In this document: one piece after another, positions 4,915 to 43,076 of the stretch | How positions within the stretch are numbered: position 1 is the first letter of the stretch | How the letters are laid out: each line of letters starts with the position of its first letter | NCBI RefSeq assembly: GCF_001682385.1 | Contig: NZ_CP016210.1 | Coordinates: 1,178,001-1,242,000, forward strand | DNA length: 64,000 nt | Direction: 5' to 3' | From: Azoarcus olearius | Lineage (GTDB): Bacteria; Pseudomonadota; Gammaproteobacteria; Burkholderiales; Rhodocyclaceae | Notes under the pieces: generated by a model | What the model saw: only the letters and a program-made list of their open reading frames with translations | What the model was told of the DNA's origin: nothing | Databases searched by the model: none | Program-made: the position numbers and the translations under genes

Positions 4915-6246
4915 ATGAGCAATATCAAGACCCAGGACGTGCCGCGCGTCGGCTTCGTATCCCTCGGGTGCCCGAAGGCGACTTCGGATTCGGAACACAT
5001 CCTCACGCGCCTGCGGGCCGAAGGGTACGAAATCTCCGGCAGCTATGACGCCGCGGATCTGGTCGTGGTGAATACCTGCGGCTTCATCGACGCGGCCGTC
5101 GAGGAGTCGCTGGATGCGATCGGTGAGGCCCTGGCGGAGAACGGTCGGGTGATCGTCACCGGTTGTCTTGGCGCAAAGGACGACGTCATCCTTGCGGCTC
5201 ATCCCCAGGTTCTTGCGGTGACCGGGCCGCATGCCACGGAAGAGGTGATGCAGGCTGTCCATCGCCACCTTCCCAAGCCGCACGACCCGTTTTCCGACCT
5301 GGTGCCACCGCAGGGGATCCGGCTCACGCCGCAGCATTACGCGTACCTGAAGATTTCCGAGGGCTGCAACCATCGGTGCACCTTCTGCATCATCCCCTCG
5401 ATGCGCGGCGATCTGGTAAGCCGGCCCATTCACGATGTCATGCGGGAGGCCGAGGCGCTCGCCGATGCTGGCGTGAAGGAGTTGCTGGTCATTTCCCAGG
5501 ACACCTCGGCCTACGGCGTCGACGTCAAGTACCGCACCGGCTTCTGGGGCGGAAAGCCCGTGAAGACGAGGCTTTACGATCTTGCCAACGCCCTGGGCGA
5601 ACTGGGCATCTGGATCCGGATGCACTACGTCTACCCGTATCCCAGTGTCGATGACCTGATTCCGCTGATGGCGGAAGGAAAGATACTGCCCTATCTCGAC
5701 GTGCCCTTCCAGCATGCGAGCCCGCGCATCCTCAAGGCGATGAAGCGCCCCGCCAATGCAGAAAACGTGCTGGAGCGCGTCCGCAAGTGGCGGGAGATCT
5801 GCCCGGATCTTACGATCCGCTCGACCTTCATCACCGGCTTTCCGGGGGAGACGGAGGAGGACTTCGAGCAACTCCTGCAGTTTCTGGAGGCGGCGCAGCT
5901 CGACCGGGTGGGTGCGTTTGCCTACTCGCCGGTGGAAGGCGCCGCGGCCAACGACTTGCCGGATGCCGTCCCCGACGAGGTCCGTGAAGAGCGCCGCGCG
6001 CGCCTGATGGATTTCCAGGAAGACATCTCGACGCTGCGCCTCGAGGCCAAGATCGGCCGTGAGATGACGGTACTGGTGGATGATGTCGACGAGGAGGGGG
6101 CGCTTGCGCGTTCGCCCGGAGATGCGCCTGAAATCGACGGTCTCGTCGTGATCCCGGACGGCGAGGGACTGGCGCCGGGAGACTTCGCCCGTGTCCGCAT
6201 CACCGATTGCGATATCCATGATCTCTACGCGGAGCGGGTGGCCTAG
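4915..6246 (+). CDS. rimO: ribosomal protein S12 methylthiotransferase
   Basis: RimO adds a methylthio group to Asp88 (E. coli numbering) of ribosomal protein S12, a radical-SAM reaction. At 443 residues it has the full family plan. The N-terminal UPF0004 domain has cluster ligands Cys19, Cys55 and Cys84. The radical-SAM domain has CNHRCTFC (Cys151, 155, 158), and a C-terminal TRAM domain runs from about 375. The ATG at 4915 is preceded only by a weak GAGCAAG site. It follows phaR by 61 bp with no terminator, so co-transcription is possible. RimO rather than MiaB is supported by SLGCPK near the N-terminus and IIPSMRG after the cluster motif. Confidence 0.95.
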
Positions 6247-6266
6247 TTTCGCGTGAAGGAGGGCGT

Positions 6267-7208
6267 CTGGACGGTCTGCCCAGTCTGAACCCATCCGAGC
6301 GCCCCGTCATTGGTCTGGCGCTGGGGAGCGGTGCAGCCCGCGGTTGGGCCCATCTCGGGGTGCTGCGCGCCCTCGCGGCGGACGGAATCGTGCCGGATGT
6401 CGTATGCGGTTGTTCGATCGGTGCGTTCGTCGGTGCGGCCGCGGCCTCCGGCGACCTCGGCAAGATCACCGACTGGGCCCAGTCGCTGAAGTGGCAGGAT
6501 GTGGTGTCCTTGCTCGACGTCAGTCTGCGCGGCGGGCTGATCAAGGGCGAGCGGCTGATCCAGTTCTTCCAGCGCAATTTCGTCGACCGCGACTTTTCGG
6601 AGCTGCCCACCCGGTTTGCCTGCGTAGCAACCGAGCTTGGAAGCGGCCGCGAGATCTGGCTGCACGAGGGTAGCGTTTCCGCCGCCGTGCGGGCCTCGAT
6701 CGCGCTGCCGGGGTTGATGACGCCGGTCCTCTATCGGGGCAAGGTGCTGGTCGACGGCGGCTTGGTCAATCCGGTGCCGGTTTCTCTGTGCAGGGCGATG
6801 GGGGCGGATCTCGTCATTGCGGTGGATCTGGGGTCCGACATGGTCGGGCGGGCGTGGAAGCACGCCGCGGTAGAGCCGGCTCCCATCGAGGAAACCGAGA
6901 GCGGCTGGAGCGACCGCCTTCTGGCGCGCTTTCGTTTCGGGGCGGCCGCCGGACCCAATTCGGCAGTCGAGGCCAATCTGCCCTCGCTCATCACGGTGCT
7001 CAGTTCCAGCATCAACGTCATGCAGGTGCGGATTGCCCGCAGCCGGCTCGCGGGAGAGCCGGCGGATGTGCTGGTTTCGCCGCGGGTCGGCCAGTTGGGG
7101 CTGCTCGACTATCACCGCGCGGCGGAAGCGATTGCGGAGGGGGAGGCCGCAGTGGCCCGGGTTCGCCCCTTGCTTGACTATGCGCTCGGGAGGGCGGGGT
7201 CGGCTTAA
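6267..7208 (+). CDS. rssA: patatin-like phospholipase (RssA family), probable CTG start
   Basis: A patatin-fold serine hydrolase related to E. coli RssA. The oxyanion-hole motif GSGAARGW, the nucleophile box GCSIG and the catalytic DGG (VDGGLVNPVP) are all present. The first ordinary start in this frame is GTG at 6360, which would cut off the oxyanion-hole motif that is essential in the family. Reading back to the rimO stop there is no ATG, GTG or TTG, but CTG at 6267 lies 3 bp after a near-perfect AAGGAGGG (6256-6263). From there the protein has 313 residues, with G20-x-G22-x3-G26 and Ser50. The CTG start is inferred; a base error is the alternative. Substrate unknown. Confidence 0.8.
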   Translation: MDGLPSLNPSERPVIGLALGSGAARGWAHLGVLRALAADGIVPDVVCGCSIGAFVGAAAASGDLGKITDWAQSLKWQDVVSLLDVSLRGGLIKGERLIQFFQRNFVDRDFSELPTRFACVATELGSGREIWLHEGSVSAAVRASIALPGLMTPVLYRGKVLVDGGLVNPVPVSLCRAMGADLVIAVDLGSDMVGRAWKHAAVEPAPIEETESGWSDRLLARFRFGAAAGPNSAVEANLPSLITVLSSSINVMQVRIARSRLAGEPADVLVSPRVGQLGLLDYHRAAEAIAEGEAAVARVRPLLDYALGRAGSA

Positions 7209-7231: not shown

Positions 7232-8638
7232 ATGGACAGGATCGTAGAGGAACTGATCGGTATCGTCGGCGAGGCGAATGTCCTTACCACCGCCGACGAC
7301 ATGGCGCCTTATCTGACCGACTGGCGCGGCCGCTACCGCGGCCATGCGCGCGCGGTGGTCAGGCCGGCTGCAACGGCTGAAGTGAGCGCCGTTCTGGCGG
7401 CGTGCCATGCGGCCGCGGTGCCCGTCGTTCCTCAGGGCGGCAACACCGGTTTGTGTGGCGGGGCAACGCCTTCGGAGGCGGGAGTGGCGGTCGTGCTCAG
7501 CCTGACCAGGATGAACCGCATCCGCTCCCTCGATCCGGACAACAACACCGTGGCGGTCGAAGCTGGCTGCACCCTTGCTGCGCTCCAGGAGGCCGCGGCG
7601 GCAGCGGAGCGGCTGTTCCCCTTGTCGCTGGCGTCGGAGGGCAGTTGCACCATTGGCGGAAACTTGTCCACCAACGCCGGCGGGGTGCAGGTGCTGCGCT
7701 ACGGAAATACGCGCGAACTGACGCTGGGGCTCGAGGTGGTGCTGCCGGACGGGCGGATCTGGGACGGGATGCGAGGCTTGCGCAAGGACAACACGGGCTA
7801 TGACCTCAAGCACCTTTTCATTGGCGCCGAGGGAACCTTGGGTGTGATCACCGCCGCAGTGCTGAAGTTGTTTCCCGCGCCCCGCGGGTTTGCGACGGCC
7901 TGGGCTGCCGTGTCCGACCCTGCTGCAGCGGTCCGTCTGCTTGGACGCCTGCGCCATCACTGCGGTGACCGAATCAGCGCTTTCGAACTCGTGGGGCGGC
8001 CGGCACTCGATCTCGTGCTGAAGCACATCCCCGGGGCTCGTGATCCCTTCAGTGCGCCCACCCAGTGGGCTGTTCTGATCGAACTGAGCGACAGCCTCGA
8101 GGGAGAGGGGCTGGCCGAGACCCTCGCCGGCGCATTAGGGGCCGAGATGGAGGCCGGGCTGGTCCTCGATGCGGTCGTCGCGTCCAGCCTTGGGCAGGCC
8201 CAGACGCTGTGGGCGCTGCGTGAAAACATCTCGGAAGCGCAGCGCATCGAAGGCGTGAGCATCAAGCACGACGTGTCGGTGCCGGTGAGCCGGATCGCCG
8301 AGTTTCTTGAGCGGGCGGATGTCAGCCTCAAATCGCAGTGGCCCGGGGTGCGCATCGTGGCATTCGGTCACATCGGTGACGGCAATCTGCACTACAACCT
8401 TTCACGTAGTGAAACCGACGACAACGCCTCGTTCATCGCCCGCACCGAGGACGTCAATCGGATCGTCCATGATCTGGTCGATGCCTTGGGCGGTTCGATT
8501 TCCGCCGAGCACGGCCTGGGACAGCTCAAGAGAGCGGAGATCCGCCGTTACAAGAGTACGGTCGAGATGGACATGATGGAGGCAATAAAGAATGCCTTCG
8601 ATCCGTCGCGCCTGATGAATCCCGGAAAGGTGCTTTGA
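7232..8638 (+). CDS. FAD-linked oxidase, GlcD / D-2-hydroxyacid dehydrogenase type
   Basis: A 468-residue flavoprotein with an N-terminal FAD-binding-4 domain (VVPQGGNTGLCGG near 65-77; SEGSCTIGGNLSTNAGG near 134-150) and a C-terminal FAD-oxidase domain. The latter includes HIGDGNLHYN and ends EHGLGQLKR...FDPSRLMNPGKV. These are hallmarks of the GlcD, D-lactate dehydrogenase and D-2-hydroxyglutarate dehydrogenase group, which oxidise a D-2-hydroxyacid to the 2-oxoacid. No glycolate-oxidase partners (glcE, glcF) are adjacent, which favours a stand-alone dehydrogenase such as D-2-hydroxyglutarate dehydrogenase. The substrate cannot be decided from sequence. It starts 23 bp after the patatin gene and probably shares its transcript. 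Confidence 0.85.
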   Translation: MDRIVEELIGIVGEANVLTTADDMAPYLTDWRGRYRGHARAVVRPAATAEVSAVLAACHAAAVPVVPQGGNTGLCGGATPSEAGVAVVLSLTRMNRIRSLDPDNNTVAVEAGCTLAALQEAAAAAERLFPLSLASEGSCTIGGNLSTNAGGVQVLRYGNTRELTLGLEVVLPDGRIWDGMRGLRKDNTGYDLKHLFIGAEGTLGVITAAVLKLFPAPRGFATAWAAVSDPAAAVRLLGRLRHHCGDRISAFELVGRPALDLVLKHIPGARDPFSAPTQWAVLIELSDSLEGEGLAETLAGALGAEMEAGLVLDAVVASSLGQAQTLWALRENISEAQRIEGVSIKHDVSVPVSRIAEFLERADVSLKSQWPGVRIVAFGHIGDGNLHYNLSRSETDDNASFIARTEDVNRIVHDLVDALGGSISAEHGLGQLKRAEIRRYKSTVEMDMMEAIKNAFDPSRLMNPGKVL

Positions 8639-38699: not shown

Positions 38700-39500
38700 T
38701 CACAGGCTGGTGAAACGGGTGCCGTCGTAGGCGAGCCAGCGCGCGCGGCCGTGCCAGTCCGCCAGCACGTGGCGTCCGCACTGCCGGCCATCGACGAGGT
38801 GGGTGTGCTGGCCCGGTCGATGGGTGTGGCCATGGATCAGTTCGGGGTAGCCGTACTCGCGCAGCAGCGCGGCGACGGCGTCGGGATTGACGTCCATGAT
38901 CGTCATCGCCTTGTCCTGCTTCGCGCGTTCGCTCTGCTGACGCAGGCTGGCGATGAAGGCCTTGCGGGCTGCGAGTGGCTGCGAGAGGAAGCCGGCCTGC
39001 CAGGCGGGGTCGCGTACCTGCCGCCGATAGGCCTGGTAGGCGGTGTCGTCGGTGCACAGGGCGTCGCCGTGGCTGAGCAGGACGCGGGGCGCTGTTTCGT
39101 GCTGCCCGAGCCGCACGAGCGCCGGATCCGCCAGCAACTGCATGCCCGTGGCTGCGGCCAGTCCGTGTCCTGCGAGCAGGTCGCGGTTGCCGACCATGAA
39201 ATATACGGCGGTGCCGCTCGCGGCCAGGGCCCGCAATGCGGACGCGATGCGCTGGTTGAAAGGCGCTTCGAGGTCGTCATCGCCCGCCCAGTATTCGAAC
39301 AGGTCGCCAAGGATGAAGAGGCTGCCCGCGTCGCGCGCGGGCCCGGCGAGAAAGTCCACGAAGGCGGCAACCGTGTCCGGCTGATCCTCGCTCAGGTGGA
39401 GGTCCGAAATGAAGAAAGCCGGAAGCGCGACGGACGCGGCTTCCGGCTCGTCGCCGGCACGGCCGCCGGTGGCGGCCGCTTGCGTACGGGGATCAGACAA
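38700..39500 (-). CDS. lpxH: UDP-2,3-diacylglucosamine diphosphatase
   Basis: Splits UDP-2,3-diacylglucosamine to lipid X in lipid A synthesis, at the inner membrane surface. The 266-residue metallophosphatase has every metal motif: ISDLHL (Asp33, His35), GDLFEYW, GNRD, SHGD and HGHTHRP. It has about 26 residues before the first motif, where E. coli LpxH has fewer than ten; no later ATG exists before residue 102, so the extension stands unless a non-ATG start is used. Its ATG overlaps the ppiB stop, as in E. coli where ppiB and lpxH are also neighbours. Confidence 0.94.
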
Positions 39501-39987
39501 CTTCGGCCCGCTCGATGATCACGTCTTCCTTCGGCACATCCTGATGGAAGCCGCTCGAGCCCGTCTTGACCTTGCGGATCGCATCGACCACGTCCAGTCC
39601 GGCGGTAACGCGGCCGAACACGCAGTAGCCCCAGCCCTGCAGGTCCTGCGAACGGAAGTTGAGGAAGTCGTTGTCGGCGACATTGATGAAGAACTGCGCA
39701 GAGGCGGAGTGGGGCGCCTGGGTGCGCGCCATGGCGATGGTGCCGCGTTCGTTCTTGAGGCCGTTGTCGGCTTCGTTCTTGATCGGCTCGCGGGTCGGCT
39801 TCTGCTTCATGCCGGGCTCGAAGCCGCCGCCCTGGATCATGAAACCGTCGATGACGCGGTGGAAGACGGTGTTGTCGTAGTGGCCGTCCTTCACGTAGGT
39901 CAGGAAGTTCTCGACGGTCACCGGCGCCTTCTCGGCGTCGAGTTCGAGGGTGATGACGCCGTAGTTGGTGTGCAGGTTCACTGCCAT
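39493..39987 (-). CDS. ppiB: cytoplasmic peptidyl-prolyl isomerase (cyclophilin)
   Basis: A 164-residue cyclophilin without a signal peptide. Active-site features are [13 protein letters not shown] near 42-54 and [13 protein letters not shown] near 94-106, with a Trp in QGWGYCVFG. It assists folding at proline bonds in the cytoplasm. It lies between lpxH (8-base overlap downstream) and a periplasmic paralogue 16 bp upstream, a clear tandem duplication with different destinations. Confidence 0.95.
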
Positions 39988-40003
39988 GGTGTGCTCCTTG
40001 TGC

Positions 40004-40585
40004 TTATCGGGCTGCGGGGCCGGCCGGCTGCGCTTCGATCACGCGCGCCGACTGGATGACGACCGGCTCGGCCGGGACATTCTGGTGGAAGCCGACATTG
40101 CGCGTCGGCACGCGGGCGATGGTGTCGACGACGTCGAGGCCGCGCACCACCTTGCCGAACACCGCGTAACCCCAGCCGTCACGGGAAGGGTAGTCGAGGA
40201 AGCTGTTGGGGGCCACGTTGATGAAGAACTGCGCGGTGGCGGAGTGCGGGTCGCCGGTGCGGGCCATCGCCAGCGTGCCGGGTTCGTTGCGCAGGCCGTT
40301 TTTCGCTTCGTTCTCGATCGGGGCGCGGGTGGATTTTTCCTTCATCGCCGCGTCCATGCCACCGCCCTGGATCATGAAGCCGTTGATGACGCGGTGGAAG
40401 ATCGTGCCGTCGTAGTGCTTGTCCTTCACGTACTGCAGGAAGTTGGCGACCGTCTTCGGTGCCTTCTCAGGGTACAACTCGACGACGAGTTCGCCCTGGT
40501 TGGTGGTGAACAGCACCTGCGGGTTGGCGGCGGCGGCGAGCCCGAGCCAGGTGGACAGGGCAAGGAAGGCGATGAGGCGTTTCAT
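40004..40585 (-). CDS. ppiA: periplasmic peptidyl-prolyl isomerase (cyclophilin)
   Basis: A 193-residue cyclophilin with a clear signal peptide (KR, hydrophobic core, cleavage after LAAA near residue 20). The catalytic [13 protein letters not shown] and [13 protein letters not shown] are conserved and align closely with the cytoplasmic copy next door. It should act on exported proteins. The ATG at 40585 has GGAG upstream; longer frames into the next gene are not supported. Confidence 0.94.
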
Positions 40586-40629: not shown

Positions 40630-41826
40630 TCAGGCGGCGCCTTCGTAGACGATCTTCCACTCGCCGCCTTCGCGCACCCAGTACTGACGCTTGCGGTGCA
40701 CGTCGTTGAGACCGTTGCTGCGGTAGGTCTGTTCGAAGGTGACGACGACGAGTTCTTCCTTGCCGGGGTTGCGGAACATGCTGACCTTGTCCACGCCGAC
40801 CTTGATCCACTCGCGGCCCTGCGCCGCGCGCCGCTTCTGCCTGGCCCAGCCGTCGCGGTCGTAACGGTCGCTGCGGAACTCCCGCGAGTAGTTGGACAGC
40901 AGCCGATCGACGTCCAGGCTCTCCCAGTCGCGCCGCCAGCGCTCGATGGCGTCGTTGAGGCTGCGCCGGCTGCTCTGCCAGTCGTCCAGGCTCAGCCACT
41001 CGACCTCGTTGCTGATGATCACCGGGGTGGAGCCCGGTTCGACATAGCTGGAAAGGCTGGTGAAATCCTGGTTGGTCAGCACCACGCAGCCTTCGGAGGC
41101 CTTGGGCGGGCGCGAATAGGTGTCGCTGGGGGTGCCGTGCAGCCAGATGCCGTGGCCGGTACGGCCGAGGCGCTTGTCCCAGTCGTTGGGGTAGTTGAGC
41201 GGAAAGGCGCCGCTGCCGTAGAAGTCGGGCAGGCGCTTGGGCTCGATGAACGAGGTGACGTGGTACACGCCGAGCGGCGTGCGGTTGTCGCCTTCGCGCA
41301 TCTTCTCGGCGCCGGCCTTGCCGTGGCTGGCGTAGTAGTCCGCGACGAAGCGCGGCTTGCCGTTGTCGTTGCGATAGACGTAAAGGCGGGCGCGACGGGT
41401 GTCGACGACCACGGCGTAGCGCTGATCCGGCCCCATCTGCATCAGGTAGCGTGGTACCACCTCGGTGGGCGGGCGTTCGCGATAGGCCCGCAGCCGCAGG
41501 ATGGCCTCTTCGCGCAGTCCCTCGACCTCGCTGCCGGCGGCTTCGATGTTGCCGAAGGTCTTCAGCGGGCGCGCGCGCGCCAGCAACAGGTCGCCTTTGA
41601 CGAGGTGAGCGAGGCGGAAATTGGGATATACCGCAAGCAAGGCCTCGGTGCGGTCGAGCGCGGCATCGAGGCGGTTGGCCTCGATCTCCCGGAAAACGTC
41701 CTGCAGCGCGGCGTCCGGCCCGCTGTCGCTGATCTTGCGCTCGAGCCCTGCCGACGTGGCCGCGCCCCCCGGAACAAGCAGGCCGAGCGCGAGCAGCGCG
41801 GCGCACAGGCGGTGAAGCGGGCTCAT
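40630..41826 (-). CDS. L,D-transpeptidase (YkuD) with C-terminal NTF2-like domain
   Basis: A 398-residue exported protein. A signal peptide (about 1-26) is followed by an all-helical repeat-like region (30-120). The YkuD catalytic domain runs from about 136 to 270, with His230 and nucleophile Cys247 in HGT...SEGC. The C-terminal domain (about 285-398) ends YRSNGLN...[13 protein letters not shown]. YkuD enzymes make 3-3 peptidoglycan crosslinks or attach proteins to the wall. The C-terminal domain is of the NTF2/Cds6-like kind and closely matches the end of the adjacent TPR protein. The two genes are 2 bp apart. Confidence 0.9.
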
Positions 41827-41828
41827 CC

Positions 41829-43076
41829 TCAGCCTCCCACCGTTTCGCGACGGATCTTCCACTGATCGCCGCGGCGGACCAGTTCCAGCGTCTTGTTGGT
41901 CGAACCATTGAACCCGCTGGAGCGGTAATGCTGCTGGAAGCGGACGGTGGCGCGGTCGCCATTGACGCTGATGCGCGGGTTGTCCACCTCGACCGTGATC
42001 GCGCCTGCCTTGCCTACCCGCTGCTGGCGTTCGCGCTCCCATACGGCGCGGGCGCGGCCGTCGGGCACCTCGAAGTCCTTGTCGTAGGCCGCAAGATAGG
42101 ACTTTACGTCCTTGCGCGACCAGGCCTGAGCCCAGCCCTGCACGCTGCGCAGCACCGCGTCCTGCGCGGCCTTTTCGGGCGCTGCGGCCGGCTTGCGTTC
42201 CGCCACGGCCGTGTCGGCGCCGGGCTGGGACGCGGTGCCGGCGGGCGCTTCGGCCGCCGGCGGCACTGGCACGGAGGCTGCGCGGGGCGCGGCCGCCGGT
42301 TGCGGCGGCGCGCCGGCGGTTGTCTGCGGGATTGCGGGCGAGTTTGGCGTGGCGGCGACAGCCGGCGCCGCGCTGCCCGGGGCGGACGGCGCCACCGGTT
42401 TTGCGGGTGCGGCGGCCGGCGGTGGCGCGACCGCGGTTGTCGGCGGTGCTGCGGCAATCGTCGGCGAGCCCGAGGCCGCCGCGAGCGCCGGTCCCTTGGG
42501 TGCGGCCGGCGGCACCGCGGCGGCGGTGCTGGCGCGCGGGCCGGCAGCGGTTCTGGCTGCGTCGCTCTTGAGTTCGGTGATCAGCGCGAGCCGCGTAGGC
42601 GTCTCGGTGCTGCGGGGGCTGTCGGCCTGCAGGGCCTTTTCGTAGGCCTGGCTTGCGAGGCGCGCATACAAGTCGCCGAGGTTCTGGTGCGCAACGGCGT
42701 AGCTGGGGTGGGTGCGCAGCGCCGATTCCAGCGTGGCGCGCGCCTTGTCGTACTGCTTCTGCTGCGCATACAGGACCGCGAGGTTGTTGTACGGCTCGGG
42801 CTGCGACGGGAAGTCCTGCGTGAGCTTGAGGAAGACCGAGATCGCCTCGTCTTGCCGCCCCAGTTCGGCGAGCGCGACGCCTCGGGCGAAACTCGCTTCG
42901 GCATCGCGGGGTTGTGCTTCCACCAACCGGGTGGCAAGCACCAAGGCTTCTGCGGCCTTGCCCTGCTGGAGCAAGGCGTGTACGTCCCGCGGGCCTTCAG
43001 CCGCACAGACGGGGGAGGCGCCGAGGAACTGCAGCAGCGCCAGCGCGCCCAGGGCGGCGGAGAGGCGAATCTTCAT
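41829..43076 (-). CDS. periplasmic TPR protein with C-terminal NTF2-like domain
   Basis: A 415-residue exported protein. A signal peptide (1-25) precedes three to four TPR repeats (about 30-165). A Pro/Ala-rich linker follows (about 185-300), then a C-terminal NTF2/Cds6-like domain. That domain ends YRSSGFN...VRRGDQWKI, strikingly like the end of the downstream L,D-transpeptidase. Spacing of 2 bp implies one transcript, and the shared domain implies a common ligand or a partnership at the cell wall. I do not know a characterised orthologue. Confidence 0.85.

Follow-up and report, generated by a model that had tools for sequence, protein, structure and literature searches.

The NTF2-like domain of Csd6-type enzymes was previously known from three shape-determining proteins: Csd6 of Helicobacter pylori, Pgp2 of Campylobacter jejuni and Bd1075 of Bdellovibrio. 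In the published work on these enzymes, the pocket of the Pgp2 domain is perturbed by peptidoglycan fragments in nuclear magnetic resonance (NMR) experiments and the K307A variant pulls down with sacculi only weakly (PMC8038945), and the Bd1075 domain targets its enzyme to one face of the cell, the convex one (PMC8938487). The Pgp2 paper considers that the domain seems restricted to helical cells (PMC8038945). Here, we describe a gene pair in a 64,000-nucleotide stretch of the Azoarcus olearius genome (NZ_CP016210.1, positions 1,178,001 to 1,242,000; henceforth the window) whose two products both end in this domain (Pfam PF24125, Cds6_C): a YkuD-family enzyme and, encoded directly upstream, a tetratricopeptide repeat (TPR) protein. 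The reading that we favor, with a probability of roughly 0.6, is that Cds6_C is a peptidoglycan-gripping module, and that the pair consists of a wall-trimming LD-carboxypeptidase and a wall-anchored TPR adaptor. We picture a module that would hold a peptidoglycan fragment in its pocket. The periplasmic enzyme would trim stem tetrapeptides to tripeptides, its own NTF2-like domain binding and selecting sites on the wall. The tail of the TPR protein would likewise grip peptidoglycan, and a flexible Pro/Ala linker of about 135 residues would hold out the TPR platform, which would most likely recruit the enzyme of the neighboring gene, or another envelope protein, to the same zone of the wall. The parts of the pair are as follows.

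41829..43076, minus strand: TPR protein, 415 amino acids, with an export-like N-terminal segment, TPR helices, a Pro/Ala linker and a C-terminal NTF2-like domain
42621..42992, minus strand: TPR domain, residues 29-152 of the TPR protein (model confidence about 94-98 per ten-residue block over residues 31-150)
42183..42590, minus strand: Pro/Ala linker, residues 163-298 of the TPR protein (57% Pro+Ala, low model confidence)
41844..42155, minus strand: C-terminal Cds6_C domain (NTF2-like; residues 308-411 by Pfam) of the TPR protein
41833..41838, minus strand: GGGAGG, a ribosome-site-like sequence within the 3' end of the TPR gene, ahead of the enzyme ATG (41826)
40630..41826, minus strand: YkuD-family enzyme of Csd6/Pgp2/Bd1075 type, 398 amino acids
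41479..41754, minus strand: residues 25-116 of the enzyme, its helical N-terminal part, with a weak likeness to TPR (TPR_16 at E 0.016, short of the cut-off)
41014..41418, minus strand: YkuD catalytic domain, residues 137-271 of the enzyme (Pfam E 5.6e-22)
40642..40959, minus strand: C-terminal Cds6_C domain (NTF2-like; residues 290-395 by Pfam) of the enzyme

The two C-termini are members of one family. A sequence-only reading of the window had proposed that the proteins end in related domains of about 105 residues, and profile searches assigned both ends to PF24125 rather than to different families. Each exceeds the curated cut-off of 27 bits, the enzyme with 92 bits (E 3.7e-26) and the TPR protein with 55.3 bits (E 9.6e-15); no other protein of the window genome matches at E 0.01. 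Aligned directly, the two ends share 31% identity over 101 columns (BLASTP, E 1e-10) and reach a local alignment score of 118, where 2000 shuffles averaged 33 (standard deviation 6.3) and never exceeded 72, and profile-profile comparison relates them with a probability of 99.2% (E 3.1e-19). The motifs pointed out in that reading are present as YRSNGLN and VREGGEWKI in the enzyme and as YRSSGFN and VRRGDQWKI in the TPR protein. Its other structural claims proved accurate as well: the YkuD domain, the TPR repeats and the Pro/Ala linker are recovered by Pfam and in the predicted models, and coordinates 40630-41826 and 41829-43076 leave 2 base pairs between the genes. A general structure comparison of the TPR-protein model was filled by TPR chains; its NTF2 part was compared by Foldseek, which placed Bd1075 (7o21) first (E 5.0e-8). 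The TPR tail also matches SnoaL/DUF4440-like families, and PF00691 (OmpA) is neither among the four families listed for the enzyme nor among the best 25 of 33 for the TPR protein. From their N-terminal sequences, both proteins appear to be exported; the TPR protein has no clear lipobox, as judged by eye.

Pairing of the two genes is the rule in the window's order, and not beyond it. PF24125 is present in 65 of the 120 order genomes sampled and in none of 14 control genomes, and in 59 of the 65 two matches lie in tandem on one strand, 0.98-1.72 kilobases apart. We examined these 59 tandem loci, that of the window among them, together with the six positive genomes that have no tandem. In 59 loci, a TPR-tail gene immediately precedes a YkuD gene of the same orientation. 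In two more tandem loci (L039, L065), what is present of the TPR gene is a cut or short frame, and at two others (L089, L091) the enzyme is devoid of the domain and a third domain-bearing protein adjoins the pair. At L091, this third protein begins with an HTH_25 domain and has a Cds6_C tail (7466-8323, minus strand), and is encoded directly upstream of the TPR-tail gene and the tail-less enzyme; we take it to be RodZ-like. A scan with a TPR profile, of which the best 80 loci were kept, carries the bias of its TPR-protein query: an enzyme-type frame follows downstream on the same strand in 76 of them, with the domain in 73 (in L191 only as a 180-residue fragment), with two cut by contig ends and one (L202) without the domain. 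The other four are a locus cut by a contig end (L171), one in another context (L213), and two (L184, L197) in which the TPR gene is followed by a cyclophilin-looking gene, as judged by eye, with no enzyme downstream. In a survey of the class, 38 of 229 genomes carry PF24125 (three of them from the window's order), 22 of these as a tandem pair; the other 16 hold lone enzymes, two-domain enzymes, TPR neighbors with weak tails or none, one BamE-domain protein and fragments. At L114, L118 and L121, the enzyme stands beside a TPR protein whose tail is weak or was not found. A sample of the phylum gave PF24125 in 120 of 299 genomes, many from one family. The two genes are thus adjacent in nearly all order loci examined and in 76 of the best 80, and the frequent separation that would have counted against the sequence-only reading was seen only outside the order; strict universal pairing was rejected on the 22 of 38 tandems in the class survey. 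As a separate observation, a small exported protein, possibly with an SH3-like start (a name that we supply from recall), is encoded directly upstream of the lone NTF2-domain enzyme at L119 (7696-8313, minus strand).

Cds6_C also occurs as a tail on other envelope proteins. Among the 150 matches listed for the 59 tandem order genomes, there are at least 25 further copies, in at least 15 genomes. Thirteen of the 25 end TolC/OEP proteins (11 scanned singly, L099 within set A3, and L245 assigned by its 98% identity to L100, itself a type I secretion TolC by NCBIfam with 285 bits, cut-off 225); three belong to BamE-domain proteins, two to DctM-domain proteins, two to TonB receptors, each beside an autotransporter also bearing the tail, and five to small or unassigned proteins, including L242, which is cut and was left unscanned. 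Beyond these 25, tails were found on SurA-type proteins (five of the 25 in set A3), an FhaC/ShlB-type protein (L133), a BamE-domain protein (L122), a SPOR protein (L214) and the HTH_25 protein of L091. Profiles of enzyme tails and TPR tails separate all 150 single-domain enzymes from all 156 single-tail TPR proteins, partly by construction, as the profiles and the proteins they separate overlap; 30 of 32 other frames, three of the 32 being pair fragments (L039, L065, L191), score as TPR-type. A domain tree of 85 rows and 122 columns (with samples of 22 enzyme and 24 TPR domains; L065 and L191 left out, L039 too short to align) sets the enzyme domains apart (3 changes) and mixes TPR tails with other tails (11 and 14 changes), 49 of its 82 inner branches being unresolved.

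Several of these tailed proteins form arrangements of their own. Two pairs of TonB receptor and autotransporter in a single genome (L104, 2581-10178, and L241, 999-8705, both on the minus strand) comprise four Cds6_C-type tails, that of the L241 autotransporter having been found by our own profile only. SurA-type peptidyl-prolyl isomerases with a C-terminal Cds6_C occur in another class (L216, 4864-6588, plus strand; L217, 6105-7829, minus strand; L223, L230 and L231), the L216 gene lying between lptD- and pdxA-type genes. In L214 (5888-7129, plus strand), from the window's phylum and another class, Cds6_C is followed by a SPOR domain.

Do the two proteins work together? The TPR-gene stop codon TGA (41831-41829) is followed by GG and then by the enzyme ATG at 41826. 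Because the GGGAGG ahead of the enzyme start sits within the TPR gene, coupled translation of the two genes is plausible; a promoter scan returned no match, with 0.3 expected. Gene order and the abutting genes, and these only, suggest that the TPR platform may hold the enzyme. Alternatively, the two genes may share no more than a mobile wall-anchor domain and a transcript, with their products acting independently, which we regard as doubtful. Such independence would agree with the wide shuffling of the tail among proteins, with TPR genes lacking a detectable enzyme relative in two draft genomes of the order (G081, 98% complete, and G039, 100% complete, each with a cyclophilin-like gene directly after the TPR gene) and no enzyme downstream at L184 and L197, and with enzymes that have no detected TPR gene alongside in the class survey (L115, L116, L119, L124). 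A very divergent enzyme could have escaped detection in the former four cases, as could a divergent TPR gene next to the enzymes that stand alone. The same observations count against the joint action that we favor: with TPR genes lacking the enzyme in two genomes and enzymes standing alone elsewhere, a fixed complex is not general, and a regulator existing only together with the enzyme was rejected on G081, G039, L184 and L197. Independence, in turn, sits poorly with genes that adjoin in 59 order loci and in 76 of the best 80, with near-abutting genes that place the ribosome site of the enzyme inside the TPR gene, and with the position, at a contig start, of the sole enzyme among the order loci fetched that has no TPR gene on its piece (L092), in a survey blind to enzymes that lack PF24125.

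What does the enzyme do? The name transpeptidase, given to it in the sequence-only reading, is probably a misnomer, as fold, sequence and active site point to a Csd6-type LD-carboxypeptidase. Searching the PDB with the enzyme at E 0.01 yielded four distinct sequences, all from three LD-carboxypeptidases: Bd1075 (7o21, E 3.3e-42), Csd6 (4xzz) and Pgp2 (6xj6, 6xj7). An hmmsearch with an enzyme profile found the same LD-carboxypeptidases at E 6e-67 to 5e-39 and also DpaA (8ikr, E 1.5e-6). The enzyme model (mean predicted local distance difference test score 90.5) superposes on Bd1075 with Z 31.0 over 261 residues (root-mean-square deviation 1.9), on Csd6 with Z 28.6 and on Pgp2 (6xj7) with Z 26.9 (VIA; 261-266 residues across the three), both domains being covered each time; in the list of 50 entries, no LD-transpeptidase exceeds Z 18.2, and most align over about 112 residues. 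The structural match to LD-carboxypeptidases begins at residue 122, after the weakly TPR-like N-terminal helices of the window enzyme (Csd6 and Pgp2 have N-terminal dimerization helices, which Bd1075 lacks; PMC8938487).

The active site is composed of H230, G231 and C247, with E178, Y203 and W228 at the D-Ala site. Its Glu-Tyr, Tyr-His and His-Cys spacings (25, 27 and 17) are close to those of Csd6 (23/27/16), Pgp2 (23/27/17) and Bd1075 (26/27/15). Across 157 YkuD domains, the D-Ala-site residues of Pgp2 recur at E107 in 139, at Y130 in 153 and at W155 in 157; W155, H157 and G158 are invariant and the Cys is kept in 156. Two residues past the catalytic Cys, most LD-transpeptidases have an Arg (PMC8938487), and LD-carboxypeptidases of the Csd6/Pgp2/Bd1075 group an Ala or Val. 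The window enzyme has V249 at this position, and the 157 domains have Val (121), Ala (30), Thr (4) or Ser (2), and Arg in none. Two further YkuD genes are present in the window genome, one with SHGCIR (L235) and one without a match to the pattern used (L234). From these relatives, spacings and active-site residues, and the missing Arg, we infer that the window enzyme is probably an LD-carboxypeptidase. For both Csd6 (PMC4599014) and Pgp2 (PMC8038945), the absence of transpeptidase activity has been attributed to loops that obstruct the path of the acceptor. If the enzyme were instead a genuine LD-transpeptidase, forming 3-3 or other crosslinks, this would be compatible with a YkuD domain bearing the His/Gly/Cys triad, and an unusual family of LD1,3-transpeptidases (LDTGo type) is also found in Betaproteobacteria (PMC10864386). 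This is nonetheless unlikely, given that the nearest relatives in fold and sequence are three characterized LD-carboxypeptidases, matched over both domains, that the anchor spacings are near theirs, and that the Arg is found in 0 of 157 domains while L235 of the same genome has SHGCIR.

How might the TPR protein be held at the wall? When the published Pgp2 pocket was mapped onto 343 aligned domains, with its numbering verified, we found the pocket kept in the TPR protein. In 155 TPR-protein domains, K307 is Lys in all, Y233 is Tyr in 154, F242 is Phe in 149 and Tyr in 5, K257 is Arg in 151 and Lys in 3, and E324 is Glu in 153 and Asp in 2. In 30 other domains, L065 (a short TPR frame) and L191 (a piece of an enzyme) among them, Y233, K307 and E324 are each retained in 30, F242 is Phe in 27 and Tyr in 2, and K257 is Arg in 20 and Lys in 9. 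In 147 enzyme domains, Y233 is Tyr in 100, F242 is Phe in 138, K257 is Lys in 115, K307 is Lys in 136 and Arg in 7, and E324 is Glu in 147. The window TPR protein has Y327, F335, R350, K395 and E411 at the five positions, four identical to Pgp2 and one Lys replaced by Arg; the window enzyme has L309, F317, K331, K379 and E395, four identical and Tyr replaced by Leu. Further pocket positions are W315, W319, Y331 and Y384 in the TPR protein and W297, W301, Y313 and Y368 in the enzyme. Eight of the 14 pocket columns are among the 12 most conserved columns of the 155 TPR tails (hypergeometric p 2.7e-6), as are seven of 14 for 28 other tails (L065 and L191 left out; p 5.5e-5).

Another line of evidence comes from TolC. 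We searched a tailed TolC in 300 genomes of the order and fetched 20 orthologs, picked by eye from the match table; some had aligned to the query end and others only to about residue 400-490. Four of the 20 carry Cds6_C (three by Pfam, L267 by alignment to residue 604), and six carry an OmpA domain instead (PF00691, E 9e-17 to 1e-22). Within one genus (g24), G717 has Cds6_C whereas G112 and G021 have OmpA, with clade support of 100/100 and 100/98 for the OmpA pair. A tree of the OEP channel part alone (31 of 32 rows; L237, with no match to the query at the cut used, left out, and the placement of the long rows L260 and L108 unsure) requires at least 9 changes among three tail states, compared to a mean of 13.5 in shuffles, 1 of 200 of which was as low, and at least 3 gains or losses of OmpA; these changes are minimum counts and carry no direction. 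The Cds6_C and no-tail labels were little more clustered on this tree than in shuffles (43 and 82 of 500 as low, respectively). OmpA-like domains bind peptidoglycan, so that the simplest reading of the alternation is that Cds6_C may do the same job on TolC orthologs. Three same-genus orthologs illustrate the two kinds of ending, OmpA or Cds6_C (L249, 604-2493, minus strand; L250, 584-2446, minus strand; L267, 465-2300, plus strand). A further TolC-type channel, without a recognized tail (L251, 419-1963, plus strand), has KHWKIQRE about 20 residues before its stop codon, apparently a vestige of a Cds6_C domain that has been lost.

On the grounds of pocket conservation and the alternation with OmpA, we infer that the tail of the TPR protein grips the wall. 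The suggestion made earlier that a common end points to a shared binding partner in the wall is accordingly supported as a hypothesis, by the same NTF2-like domain, the kept pocket and the use of Cds6_C or OmpA on TolC orthologs. Several points weigh against it. Strong wall binding by Pgp2 requires both domains, its catalytic mutants C174S and H157A also lost most wall binding, and its Y233F variant still bound sacculi (PMC8038945); because Pgp2 needs both domains, the tail by itself may have little or no hold on the wall. In the enzyme domain, the pocket is less conserved (Tyr in only 100 of 147 at Y233, Leu309 in the window), with only five of the 12 top columns lying in it (p 0.0068). Pocket residues may also be partly general to SnoaL/DUF4440-like NTF2-like relatives and conserved for other reasons. 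Finally, 10 of the 20 fetched TolC orthologs have no recognized tail (L248 by scan, nine as judged by a short end after the channel part), which implies that anchoring is dispensable in those TolCs; L248, of 523 amino acids, is the ortholog of the window genome itself.

Could the tail bind something other than peptidoglycan, such as a glycan like pseudaminic acid or a common envelope protein, and thereby sort proteins to one place? A pseudaminic-acid pocket has been proposed in Csd6 by docking (PMC4599014), the Bd1075 domain directs its protein to one cell face in response to an unknown cue (PMC8938487), and the insufficiency of the Pgp2 NTF2 domain for strong wall binding would also fit. We give this little credence, since NMR and pull-down data tie the Pgp2 pocket to peptidoglycan (PMC8038945), the peptidoglycan-binding OmpA domain alternates with Cds6_C on TolC orthologs, and L214 carries a SPOR domain in the same protein.

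Many NTF2-like proteins dimerize. That the two NTF2-like domains pair with each other in a heterodimer, through which the TPR part would recruit or regulate the enzyme, matches the tight gene pairing in the order, a single Undibacterium flavidum chain with both domain types (L182) and enzymes with two such domains for which no TPR gene was detected (L125, L126), but it is improbable: Bd1075 crystallizes as a monomer and behaves as one in size exclusion (PMC8938487), a truncated Pgp2 construct is monomeric by light scattering (PMC8038945) and Csd6 dimerizes through other, N-terminal helices; the tail is found on unrelated proteins; the second domain of L125 and L126 does not group with TPR tails (in a poorly resolved tree); and the partial distance correlation between the NTF2-like domains is 0.13, versus 0.49 for YkuD and TPR (140 gene pairs, no correction for phylogeny). 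In the same 140 pairs, the correlation is 0.25 for YkuD and the TPR tail and -0.20 for the enzyme NTF2 and TPR domains. With the domain tree, the two-domain chains and the correlations mixed and weak, NTF2-NTF2 pairing was rejected as the main explanation and kept as a rival. In the L182 enzyme (5002-6768, plus strand), the first NTF2-like domain is enzyme-type (79.0 versus 20.5 bits) and the second TPR-type (128.6 versus 61.8 bits).

Downstream of the pair, the window holds three further genes, whose ppiA-like, ppiB-like and lpxH-like names we assume from their families.

40004..40585, minus strand: cyclophilin-like gene (ppiA-like), 193 amino acids, export-like N-terminus, downstream of the pair
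39493..39987: second cyclophilin-like gene (ppiB-like), downstream of the first
38700..39500: lpxH-like gene, downstream of both cyclophilin-like genes

The tandem of cyclophilin-like genes (39493-40585), one with an export-like N-terminus, lies 3' of the pair in the window and in many relatives. Among the 64 loci examined, 54 have matches to the window cyclophilins and 53 to the lpxH-like gene.

From an abstract perspective, we lean slightly towards a wider view, in which Cds6_C would be a general mobile peptidoglycan anchor of Gram-negative envelopes and a counterpart of OmpA-like domains, tethering TolC-type, SurA-type, BamE-domain, receptor, autotransporter and TPR proteins. The window pair would then be a common form in the order, an enzyme and a tethered TPR adaptor that jointly mark or shape a wall zone, far beyond helical bacteria. 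A restriction to helical cells fits badly with the presence of the domain in 65 of the 120 order genomes (cell shapes were outside the survey). If Cds6_C is a wall anchor, it joins OmpA, LysM and SPOR as a wall-binding domain and hints at a way in which certain outer-membrane machines could be fastened to the wall in these bacteria; the TPR partner offers a handle on how Csd6-type enzymes are positioned there. Among the papers listed in literature searches, which left most subscription journals outside, none describes the TPR partner or Cds6_C tails on outer-membrane proteins. While the enzyme is new only as a further member of the Csd6 type, the TPR partner and the wide use of the tail were thus not found described.

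How does the pair compare with known systems? Csd6, Pgp2 and Bd1075 share with the window enzyme a YkuD and an NTF2-like domain, superposable over 261-267 residues, the same active-site set (from which Bd1075 deviates at Glu and Gly) and largely the same pocket residues. The window enzyme differs in its weakly TPR-like helical N-terminal part, in that its activity is predicted, and in being encoded together with a TPR protein bearing the same tail. PF24125 includes both window domains above its curated cut-off and is named after one enzyme, whereas the non-enzyme copies seen here are mostly tails of other envelope proteins, and copies outside the enzyme score as TPR-type rather than enzyme-type. 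The OmpA-like domain (PF00691) stands at the same C-terminal place as Cds6_C in TolC channels that are orthologous, with wall anchoring as the proposed common role, but is a separate Pfam family to which we claim no sequence relation. Finally, envelope scaffolds and activators of the NlpI and LpoA/LpoB type are likewise TPR or related proteins that gather wall enzymes; they are outer-membrane lipoproteins, whereas the window protein has an NTF2 tail on a long Pro/Ala linker.

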